Of a stretch of DNA of 37,303 bases, positions 30,389 to 32,848 are shown in pieces. The position numbers and the translations under genes were made by a program. A model generated the notes under the pieces. That model had not been told where the DNA came from, searched no databases, and saw only the letters and a program-made list of their open reading frames with translations. Every line of letters begins with the position of its first letter. Within the stretch, counting starts at the first letter, position 1. Source of the stretch: a virus. The stretch lies in the IMG/VR virus record IMGVR_UViG_3300018080_000347, positions 1-37,303 of that record; one strand, 5' to 3'.

Positions 30389-31264
30389 GTGAATGCTAAA
30401 AATGAAATTCTTGCCGCCAAAATCGCGCGAGAATTAAAAAACGATACGTCAAAGGTAACTTTGGTTAGCTTTGGAGATTTCTGCAGAAATATGGCACTTA
30501 AAACGCGAAAATCGAACCTACCTAAAAAAACTGATAGTCTGGAAATTTTCAAGCGCGACGGGCAAGGCCGCTATTGCGTGAAAAAAGAGGACTTGCAGGT
30601 CATTCATGACAGGGAGGCGGCCGCCAGACACGGGAATGATCCCGACGCCAGGTTTGACGAGTGGAACTTTCCGGGAACGCGGGAGGAAAGAAAGTTTATT
30701 TTCGCTCATGATTTCGGTTCAGTTGTCGAGGCATCATTGACTGCTCTGGAAGCTGGAAAATGGGTTTATATTTTTGGTGAAGTCGGAAACGGCAAGACCT
30801 CGCTCGCTATGCGGCTGACTTGGGAATTTTTGAAAGATCGTCCTTCCCGCAAAGCTTCTTTCGTGTCTATGAATCGATACAGTATTGATCAGGTCAAGCG
30901 GGAAATGTCGGAACAGGCGATGATTAGAGCCGGTCACGAGACCTACAGCGAAGAATTGAGACTGGCTAACTTTGTGATTCTGGACGATCTGGACAAGGTC
31001 AATTATCGAAACGAGCACAAAACGAGGACGATTCTTGATCTTGTCGAGAGATTGAAAAAAGGCGGTCACCGAGTCGTCGTTACGTCTCAAATTTCACTAA
31101 AGACGATATACGAGCGATATCAGGAAAATTGGGACATGAAACCCCTGATAGACCGCTTCCGGCAAATGTGCCTGATTCTACCGGAATTTCAAGAAAAGAG
31201 TAAAAGAAGGTATGAAAATTTTAGACCTGTTCGCCGGCTCGGGCGGCTTCAGTCTCGGATTTAA
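30389..31264 (+). CDS. DnaC/IstB-like AAA+ helicase loader
   Basis: The 291-residue protein has Walker A GEVGNGKTS (130-138) and Walker B FVILDD (195-200), followed by TSQISL (sensor) and an arginine near 'DRFRQM'. This is the DnaC/IstB type of helicase loader. The N-terminal ~110 residues include a probable helicase-binding part. It starts at GTG 30389 with GGAG 8 bases upstream; no earlier in-frame ATG exists. It overlaps the methyltransferase by 53 bases. Confidence 0.8.
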   Translation: MNAKNEILAAKIARELKNDTSKVTLVSFGDFCRNMALKTRKSNLPKKTDSLEIFKRDGQGRYCVKKEDLQVIHDREAAARHGNDPDARFDEWNFPGTREERKFIFAHDFGSVVEASLTALEAGKWVYIFGEVGNGKTSLAMRLTWEFLKDRPSRKASFVSMNRYSIDQVKREMSEQAMIRAGHETYSEELRLANFVILDDLDKVNYRNEHKTRTILDLVERLKKGGHRVVVTSQISLKTIYERYQENWDMKPLIDRFRQMCLILPEFQEKSKRRYENFRPVRRLGRLQSRI

Positions 31265-31970
31265 GAAAGCCGGATTCGAGACGGCCGCATTCTGCGAAAT
31301 AGACGAGAATTGCCATAATGTCTTGAGTAGAGAGTTTCCTCACGTTCCCATTTACAAAGACATCAAAAAATTTAACGCCGGCGATATTGGTCACGTTGAC
31401 GTGGTAACGGGTGGTTTTCCGTGTCAGGGGCTTTCAATTGCCGGACTTCAGAGAGGAATACGCGATGACGACAGATCAAATTTGTGGTGGGACATGCATG
31501 GAATCATTCGCCAAGTACGACCGAAATTCGCGGTTATGGAAAACGTCCCAAATTTCCTTCGCGAAGGGAACGGAACTTGGTTTGGCGACTTTCTCGGGAG
31601 CCTGGCCGAAATCGGGTATGATGCGGAATGGAAATGTATATCAGCAGCAGACGTCGGCCTCCCGCATCTCCGGGAAAGGGTCTGGGTTGTTGCCTACCCC
31701 ATTGGCGTCAGATTGGATGCCGCTATTTTTAACAAAATCAGCCTGCAGGAATACTTTAAAAAACAACCCCCGCTTCCCAAAATTATCAACTCTCCTGAGA
31801 GCGGCTGGCGTTTATCCTGGAATATTCCCGAACATCTACGAATGGATAATGGGGTACCCCTCGGACTGGACGAAATTAAAGCGAGGGTAAAGATGATGGG
31901 CAATGCGATAGTCCCGGAGATAGCTTATCTGATAGCGAAGGAAATAAGAAAGTTTTTGGAGGAAATATGA
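31212..31970 (+). CDS. DNA cytosine-5 methyltransferase (small Dcm type)
   Basis: Motif I LDLFAGSGGFSLGF (4-17), motif IV GGFPCQG (Cys71 nucleophile), motif VI ENV (110-112), motif VIII RERVWVVAYP (154-163) and motif X GNAIVPEIA are all present. It transfers a methyl group from S-adenosylmethionine to C5 of cytosine, probably to protect phage DNA. At 252 residues it is short, because the target-recognition region (~165-225) is small. A second ORF lies in the +1 frame within it. The last ~24 codons recur at 32873-32943. Confidence 0.88.
   Translation: MKILDLFAGSGGFSLGFKKAGFETAAFCEIDENCHNVLSREFPHVPIYKDIKKFNAGDIGHVDVVTGGFPCQGLSIAGLQRGIRDDDRSNLWWDMHGIIRQVRPKFAVMENVPNFLREGNGTWFGDFLGSLAEIGYDAEWKCISAADVGLPHLRERVWVVAYPIGVRLDAAIFNKISLQEYFKKQPPLPKIINSPESGWRLSWNIPEHLRMDNGVPLGLDEIKARVKMMGNAIVPEIAYLIAKEIRKFLEEI
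31465..31890 (+). CDS. Overlapping +1-frame gene inside the methyltransferase
   Basis: ATG at 31465 with GAGAGGA 7 bases upstream opens a 141-residue frame to 31890, wholly inside the methyltransferase gene. It reads ICGGTCMESFAKYDRN, WKTSQ, WPKSGMMRNGNVY, RISGKGSGLLPTPLASDW and YEWIMGYPSDWTKL. I recognise this as the pattern of phage proteins annotated as methyltransferase-related. The motifs are the shifted reading of conserved methyltransferase motifs: EIGYDAEWK gives KSGMMRNG, and LPHLRERVWVVAYP gives RISGKGSGLLPTP. Translation is supported by start, ribosome site and motif match only. Confidence 0.5.
   Translation: MTTDQICGGTCMESFAKYDRNSRLWKTSQISFAKGTELGLATFSGAWPKSGMMRNGNVYQQQTSASRISGKGSGLLPTPLASDWMPLFLTKSACRNTLKNNPRFPKLSTLLRAAGVYPGIFPNIYEWIMGYPSDWTKLKRG
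31893..31963 (+). repeat. Methyltransferase 3'-end repeat, copy 1
   Basis: This is codons MMGNAIVPEIAYLIAKEIRK and on to LEE of the methyltransferase, including the GGAGGA ribosome site used by the following gene. A second copy at 32873-32943 differs by four third-position changes. Confidence 0.92.
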
Positions 31971-32848
31971 AAGGATATAAAGTTTTTGATCAAAACTGGC
32001 GATGCAAAGATTTTAAATACGAAATCGGCAAGACCTATAAAACAGATAAAAAAATAGTTTTATGTAAAGAAGGTTTTCATTTCTGTGAAAAATTAGTGGA
32101 TTGCTTTAATTATTATGAATTCAATCCGAATAATAAGGTCGCTATTATTGAAGCAAGAAATGACATCATTAAAGGTGATGATAAACACGTCACAAATGAA
32201 ATTGAAATAATTAAAGAACTCACTTGGCATGAAGTTTTAGACATAGTGAACGTTGGAAAAGACAACACAGGCTACAGTAATAGCGGCCACAGTAATAGCG
32301 GCCACAGTAATAGCGGCCACAGTAATAGCGGCCACAGTAATAGCGGCCACTGGAATAGCGGCGACAGTAATAGCGGACACAGTAATAGCGGCGACAGGAA
32401 TAGCGGCGACTGGAATAGCGGCTACAGGAATAGCGGCGACAGGAATAGCGGCTACTGGAATAGCGGCTACTGGAATAGCGGCCAAGGGAATAGCGGCGAC
32501 TGGAATTCAAGCAATTATGAGACTGGATTCTTTAATTCACGGCAATCAAACATTATAAATGTATTCAATAAACCCTGCGAACGTAAAGTGTGGGAAGAAT
32601 CAAAAAAACCAGATTTTATATTTTTCAACGTCACTCAATGGGTATCGGAATCAGATATGACTGAACGGGAAAAAGAAGACAACCCTAATTGTAAAACAGC
32701 CGGCGGCTATTTAAAAACGCTTGAATATAAAGAAGCTTGGCGTTTGGCTTATGAATCAGCTACGCAGGAAGATATTGAACTTCTAAAAGCTTTGCCGAAT
32801 TTCGACGTTGATGTTTTTGAAGAAATTTCAGGAATACGAGTAGACTAG
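31967..32848 (+). CDS. NSG-pentapeptide repeat protein (DUF7666-type)
   Basis: The N-terminal ~95 residues (YKVFDQNWRCKDFKYEIGK, CKEGFHFCEKLVDCFNYY) resemble a phage domain I know as DUF7666. Residues ~100-181 are about 16 copies of a 5-residue unit NSG(H/D/Y)(S/R/W), coded by a 15-base unit. The C-terminal ~110 residues end with a helical part (LKTLEYKEAWRLAYESA). Similar proteins are frequent in phages, with unknown roles; the repeats may form a stacked helix. It starts by ATGA overlap with the methyltransferase and is flanked by the 3'-end repeats. Confidence 0.7.
   Translation: MKGYKVFDQNWRCKDFKYEIGKTYKTDKKIVLCKEGFHFCEKLVDCFNYYEFNPNNKVAIIEARNDIIKGDDKHVTNEIEIIKELTWHEVLDIVNVGKDNTGYSNSGHSNSGHSNSGHSNSGHSNSGHWNSGDSNSGHSNSGDRNSGDWNSGYRNSGDRNSGYWNSGYWNSGQGNSGDWNSSNYETGFFNSRQSNIINVFNKPCERKVWEESKKPDFIFFNVTQWVSESDMTEREKEDNPNCKTAGGYLKTLEYKEAWRLAYESATQEDIELLKALPNFDVDVFEEISGIRVD
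32269..32510 (+). repeat. Tandem 15-base repeat array
   Basis: About 16 units of (A/T)(G)(T/G)AATAGCGGC(C/G/T)AC type code for NSGxx pentapeptides. The first five units are almost identical and later units vary at the first and last codons. Other frames and the opposite strand are also open across the array, which follows from the repeat itself. Confidence 0.92.

Follow-up and report, generated by a model that had tools for sequence, protein, structure and literature searches.

A +1-frame protein overprinted on a phage C5 cytosine methyltransferase gene, proposed as the recognition subunit of the enzyme

The virus record IMGVR_UViG_3300018080_000347 from IMG/VR (37,303 nucleotides; this whole stretch is referred to here as the window) contains a C5 cytosine methyltransferase (MTase) locus that very probably specifies a two-subunit enzyme, in which the specificity subunit (beta) is overprinted in the +1 frame on the gene for the catalytic subunit (alpha). 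This reading builds on what the analysis showed: the two frames are both intact, each is under selection, their motif contents complement each other, and modules are exchanged in beta. The translation of beta, its complex with alpha, the methylation, and the protective role of the enzyme are inferred. Beyond this locus, we consider it probable that such genes form a major and largely unrecognized class of phage C5 MTases, in which the specificity subunit lies in +1 inside the catalytic gene. Recognition modules would come, go, and be exchanged in this subunit, with the other frame serving as an open linker, and motifs IX and X would switch frames over evolutionary time.

An earlier note on this DNA had pointed to a 141-codon +1 frame lying wholly inside the MTase gene. 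This frame is intact at 31465 to 31890, begins with an ATG behind a Shine-Dalgarno (SD)-like sequence, and is entirely nested in the MTase open reading frame (ORF; 31212 to 31970), with a GTG at 31411 as an alternative start. The peptides quoted in that note are also present and map as it described: KSGMMRNG lies over EIGYDAEW of alpha, GKGSGLLPTP over LRERVWVVAYP, and EWIMGYPSDWTKL over MDNGVPLGLDEIK. The features of the locus are as follows (window positions; basis in parentheses).

31212 to 31970, + strand: alpha, C5 cytosine MTase catalytic subunit, 252 aa (PF00145, M.HhaI alignment, motif X)
31410 to 31427, + strand: GGFPCQ of alpha, motif IV with the catalytic Cys (invariant in the alpha family alignment)
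31450 to 31457, + strand: SD-like AGAGAGGA, 7 nt upstream of the beta ATG at 31465 (sequence)
31465 to 31890, + strand: beta, +1-frame protein, 141 aa, proposed recognition (specificity) subunit (phrog_1008, shuffles, tblastn)
31465 to 31683, + strand: N-terminal domain of beta (MESFAKYD..WKTSQ..SGMMRNG), overprinted on alpha motifs IV to VIII
31539 to 31547, + strand: ENV of alpha, motif VI (E-N invariant in the alpha family alignment)
31671 to 31694, + strand: RERVWVVA of alpha, motif VIII; the same bases give GKGSGLLP of beta (sequence)
31684 to 31821, + strand: proposed target-recognition block of beta (GLLPTPLASD...), a single module in the window beta
31695 to 31880, + strand: alpha segment from motif VIII to motif X (weakly constrained frame in relatives; modeled as disordered by AF2 in a type-B relative)
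31825 to 31878, + strand: motif-IX-like stretch of beta, FPNIYEWIMGYPSDWTKL (sequence comparison)
31881 to 31964, + strand: motif X of alpha (ARVKMMGNAIVPEIAYLIAKEIRKFLEE), which begins at the end of beta (hhalign)
31967 to 32848, + strand: next gene, DUF7666 plus pentapeptide repeats, with its start overlapping the alpha stop (ATGA; context)

The N-terminus of the gene downstream of alpha corresponds to DUF7666 (PF24703; E 2e-31) and is accompanied by pentapeptide-like NSG repeats. Upstream, a DnaC-like helicase-loader ORF (30389 to 31264) extends 53 nt beyond the alpha start in another frame, and alpha may therefore be translationally coupled to it.

The two frames have complementary motif contents. 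Alpha matches PF00145 (E 8e-52) but is aligned only to positions 1 to 180 of the 324-position profile, and the alpha family HMM aligns to residues 13 to 189 of M.HhaI (motifs I to VIII; E 4e-44). Alpha carries the catalytic motifs I to VIII, with PCQ and ENV, and its C-terminus is motif X (hhalign E 2.4e-5), which follows directly after the motif-IX-like stretch of beta; nothing similar to a recognition domain or motif IX was found in the alpha frame in the PF00145 and M.HhaI alignments. The C-terminus of the beta family reads LNPxWVEWLMGFPxGWT (FPNIYEWIMGYPSDWT in the window) and is in register with the canonical motif IX (RxLTxREAARLQGFPD; E 0.001 to 0.005), although this is a short match to distant single-chain enzymes. 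The beta HMM also matches the frame-0 motif IX of locus L067, LNPDWVEWLMGYPISWT, with an E value of 4e-8.

Three ARRANGEMENTS were defined by motif placement. In type A, which includes the window and most loci, alpha carries motifs I to VIII and X, and beta carries the recognition block and motif IX. In type B (29 loci; the L067 clade), alpha carries motifs I to X, including motif IX, and beta consists of recognition-like blocks without motif IX; in every one of the 29 loci, the +1 ORF is open to a greater extent than chance predicts. In type C (L099, L101, L102, L109, L111, and L120), alpha carries motifs I to VIII and ends early, and beta contains the block and motifs IX and X. Judged from these placements, motif IX or X shifts between frames in relatives, yet each pair has the full set.

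Conservation of alpha together with codon bias could by themselves produce the similarity in the +1 frame as a mere by-product, with no second protein. As a null model, synonymous codons were shuffled within each MTase, with the protein and codon usage kept. The longest +1 open run of the window gene was 160 codons versus 60 expected and was reached by 0 of 400 shuffles; its +2 frame was ordinary in the same test (P 0.45). Median values over loci were 224 codons for the observed +1 run and 93 for the shuffled average, and openness at P<0.05 was found for the +1 frame in 81 of 95 loci versus 5 of 95 for the +2 control. On a family HMM built without the window, the window beta scored 168 bits versus 81 +/- 12 for 1,000 shuffles (maximum, 120; z 7.5). 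The median scores for all loci were 196 bits for real genes and 92 bits for synonymously shuffled ones, i.e., roughly half of the family score of beta is a "shadow" given by any synonymous recoding of the MTase. This shadow, like the weak +1 matches to beta from single-chain MTases (13 to 26 bits), is what a by-product would leave, and to this extent the suggestion in the earlier note that MTase motifs, read with a shift, give those of beta holds. It does not account for the scores of the real genes, however, nor for their open +1 frames. The stretch EWIMGYPSDW in particular does not shadow any conserved MTase motif; rather, it overlies a poorly conserved alpha segment and resembles motif IX. 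Indeed, alpha is poorly conserved precisely over the recognition block and motif IX of beta, which also counts against a by-product.

As a control, 15 bacterial genomes carrying a split locus were scanned for PF00145. Among the 14 full-profile C5 MTases found in these genomes, the +1 frame was unusually long in 1, and a beta match of >50 bits was absent from all, whereas 13 of the 16 MTases limited to motifs I to VIII had a long +1 frame, and 13 had beta. Inspection of the other three revealed two single-chain enzymes (L294 and L310) and a divergent split enzyme with a weak beta (L302). Ordinary single-chain MTases of the same genomes are without the +1 protein.

Selection was examined through the geometry of the +1 overlap, in which the third codon position of alpha is the second position of beta and the first position of alpha is the beta wobble. 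Position-specific change was computed over 321 pairs. Outside the overlap, the differences at alpha positions 1, 2, and 3 were 0.17, 0.08, and 0.52 in the N-terminus and 0.27, 0.20, and 0.57 in the C-terminus. Within the overlap as far as motif VIII, the value for position 3 drops to 0.37 to 0.38, and after motif VIII position 1 (i.e., the beta wobble) is the fastest (0.50 versus 0.43 at position 3). In an OLGenie-like count, from which the saturated dSS was left out, the rate of changes that are synonymous in alpha and nonsynonymous in beta was 0.50 to 0.84 inside the overlap versus 1.4 to 2.7 outside, and dNN/dNS of beta was 0.41 to 0.53 after motif VIII, 0.71 to 0.75 before it, and approximately 1 outside. 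Synonymous change in the MTase is lowered approximately 2- to 3-fold in the overlap; the absence of such a reduction would have told against dual coding. The results apply to the family; the pairs are non-independent, and the loci were collected by similarity to the split subfamily. The window compared with its nearest relative (L393; beta 54% identical) points in the same direction, with wide intervals, and is weak alone. At the family level, both frames are under purifying selection, with constraint falling on the +1 frame in the stretch between motifs VIII and IX. In the VIII-IX region of type B, the ratio of change at position 1 to that at position 3 is 1.83 (1.57 to 2.21), compared with 0.46 to 0.51 outside the +1 ORF; this region is fastest at the beta wobble, and the recognition region is therefore read in +1 even where alpha has its own motif IX. 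These dual-frame tests contradict the by-product explanation, and the enrichment of internal starts described below also tells against it; we regard it as scarcely credible.

An internal +1 ATG with an SD sequence of at least 5 nt occurs in 21 of 78 loci, compared with 8.6 expected from synonymous shuffling (z 5.3). In the MSWLYS group, the ATGs of alpha and beta are 4 nt apart in several members (e.g., L014), and almost the entire gene is therefore dual coding. We infer, from sequence alone, that beta is translated from its own internal start. Programmed frameshifting could instead take ribosomes from alpha into +1 after motif VIII, producing one chain with the recognition block and motif IX and no separate beta. 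Such a join would yield the canonical order of motifs I to VIII, recognition block, and motif IX, and two loci (L121 and L160) have alpha and beta parts in one ORF. However, the N-terminal domain of beta would then stay untranslated although it is constrained before motif VIII, and motif X would require a second shift back. The enriched internal SD and ATG and the closely spaced starts of the MSWLYS group are also at odds with frameshifting, which we judge unlikely.

Searches with tblastn identified 125 phage records matching beta across many host groups. In all 16 phage loci that were fetched and opened, both frames are open for >100 codons and the MTase is intact. The beta match is +1 relative to the deposited MTase coding sequence (CDS) in 12 of these; in the other 4 (L008, L010, L014, and L016), the deposited CDS is the beta frame, and the overlapping intact MTase frame is unannotated (beta-only annotations APU88996, WWO60469, XAI65183, and AUS01725). 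Altogether, the arrangement recurs in hundreds of phages and prophages, mostly with just one member of the pair annotated. The 80 IMG/VR loci chosen by the MTase frame all gave a beta HMM match, in +1 except for L093. Another set of 160 loci, which included 80 from bacterial species genomes, was chosen by beta alone; in 155 of these, beta is in +1 over alpha. The remaining five also match alpha and show a switch of frame, a short overlap, or a PCQ missed by the search pattern (the last applies to L162, L190, and L267, which have an alpha HMM match). No free-standing beta without alpha was found among the examined phage, IMG/VR, and bacterial loci, and no alpha of the split subfamily was seen there without beta. 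Of 5,426 complete Escherichia coli genomes, only 4 contain a gene resembling the one in Salmonella phage S9-5. The longest overlap seen is that of L095 (1982 to 3491), in which 457 codons of open +1 frame lie over an MTase of 492 codons.

Beta matches the PHROG family phrog_1008 ("DNA methyltransferase"; 329 positions; HMM E 1.9e-18) and has no match in Pfam or NCBIfam. The family phrog_1008 is the +1 protein family and not the catalytic one; its label describes the overlapped gene. The earlier note had linked motifs of the +1 protein to phage proteins annotated as methyltransferase-related. Its broader proposal, that a whole phage family is overprinted on the MTase, is borne out by the matching records, the fetched dual-frame loci, and the identity of phrog_1008. 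The absence of homologues, or stops in relatives, would have spoken against it; homologues of the +1 frame exist and map over the MTase in +1, and the frame is unbroken in relatives with an intact MTase of the split subfamily.

Several loci depart from the usual layout. L121 (399 to 1419) and L160 (2774 to 3512) contain the N-terminal part of alpha and beta in a single ORF, as if by a 1-nt frame switch, which may be an assembly error or a natural fusion. In L093 (1130 to 1397), the C-terminal part of beta lies in the +2 frame and overlaps alpha by only 43 codons, possibly because of an indel or a different split. L079 (911 to 1952) has a second beta-like ORF (E 3e-33) in another frame after the first alpha/beta pair, perhaps a tandem or multi-block copy. 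L100 and L108 have GTG at the usual position of the beta ATG; their +1 ORF continues approximately 440 nt upstream of alpha, and beta may therefore be fused to an upstream gene in these loci.

In a tree of the catalytic region, the split enzymes fall in one group (100/98), with the single-chain enzymes L089, L005, and L311 inside and all other single-chain enzymes outside; the support values are rough, and L311 has a long branch. The simplest reading, which is not proven, is that the split arose once and that motif IX later went back to alpha on several occasions. Bacterial copies are flanked by integrases, repressors, and primases, and most of them are therefore probably prophage genes. No recurrent restriction endonuclease was found in their flanks.

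The betas contain zero to four xPTP modules. Among near relatives of the Pseudomonas phage phPA-G gene, the N-terminal domains of beta are 86 to 97% identical, the recognition regions are often only 26 to 47% identical, and in some cases (L104/L106) the latter are 95% identical. This pattern looks as if recognition regions had been exchanged between relatives, like DNA-recognition domains. When a type-B alpha was modeled with AF2 (pTM 0.73), motifs I to VIII, IX, and X folded like M.HhaI (Z 28.6; 240 residues), with the overprinted segment (residues 165 to 253) disordered (pLDDT, approximately 30). The AF2 model of the window beta with 75 relatives has low confidence (pLDDT 63; pTM 0.23) and does not establish a fold. 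The beta profile had no match to PDB sequences up to an E value of 10, a result that does not speak against a small-domain fold. With no solved relative of beta and no confidently predicted fold, beta could be a real, overprinted protein of another kind (e.g., an MTase regulator or inhibitor, or an anti-restriction protein). We hold this to be very unlikely: what beta resembles is exactly what alpha lacks, relatives differ in which frame holds motifs IX and X, the modular exchange is as expected for recognition domains, and no alpha of the subfamily was seen without beta. The view in the earlier note of a two-protein locus, rather than of an unrelated domain, stands in that both frames are constrained, with the refinement that the +1 protein is better viewed as the recognition subunit of the MTase than as a gene unrelated to it.

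In the proposed two-subunit enzyme, alpha (frame 0) would bind AdoMet and the target cytosine through motifs I to VIII and X. Beta, initiated within the alpha message at its own SD and ATG in the +1 frame, would provide the absent small domain in trans, i.e., the DNA-recognition block or blocks and motif IX. Over motifs IV to VIII, both products are constrained, and over the recognition region beta is constrained while alpha would be just an open linker that reaches motif X. Methylation of phage DNA at sites determined by beta is the most likely activity of the enzyme and presumably protects this DNA from host restriction.

If this is correct, few conserved same-strand overlaps in phages would be as long (up to 457 codons) or as widely distributed (many phage and bacterial groups). 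The arrangement would explain the truncated look of many phage "C5 methyltransferases," the annotation of the same locus in either frame, and the existence of a PHROG named DNA methyltransferase without methyltransferase motifs. The annotated frame cloned alone would be a dead enzyme, and the class would therefore escape both activity screens of phage MTases and predictions of their specificity. The locus would also offer a natural test case of a modular, fast-evolving recognition domain that evolves under a second frame.

A literature search, with subscription journals mostly outside its coverage, found no report of the +1 family; within that coverage, we did not find descriptions of the breadth of the arrangement, the overprinted recognition region, the shifts of motifs IX and X from one frame to the other, or the repeated misannotation. 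Naturally split C5 MTases are already known, namely, M.AquI and M.EcoHK31I. The gene for the small subunit of M.EcoHK31I overlaps that for its large subunit in another frame. M.EcoHK31I (YGGCCR) is a two-polypeptide enzyme with motifs I to VIII and X on the large subunit and motif IX on the small one (PMC3404938, citing Lee 1995). The window pair has the same motif split, with motif IX on the small chain supported by a short match in register. The predicted recognition domain of M.EcoHK31I is on the large subunit (PMC3404938), whereas conservation places the recognition region of the phage pair on the small, overprinted subunit. M.EcoHK31I is also part of a restriction-modification system, whereas the window enzyme is an orphan phage MTase. 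In M.AquI (CYCGRG), another two-polypeptide enzyme, alpha has part of the variable region and beta has its distal half and motifs IX and X (PMC3404938). It resembles the phage pairs as a natural split of a C5 MTase, and type C loci (L099, L101, and L109) also have motifs IX and X on beta; it differs in that the phage pair overlaps almost fully in +1 and the window alpha keeps motif X. Under an M.AquI-type criterion (i.e., the small chain carries motif IX as well as motif X), the window fails, and its relatives L099 and L101 qualify. Phages SPbeta and phi3T encode multispecific C5 MTases with several recognition domains in a single chain. These share with the present family the use of multiple exchangeable recognition blocks per enzyme (here up to four xPTP modules), which in our case lie in an overprinted subunit rather than in a single chain. 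Finally, the ShiLan element is an HNH homing endonuclease gene inserted out of frame in a phage methylase gene (PMC11855218); it likewise places a second out-of-frame gene within a phage methylase gene, but the inserted HNH gene is not part of the enzyme and does not overlap conserved motifs.
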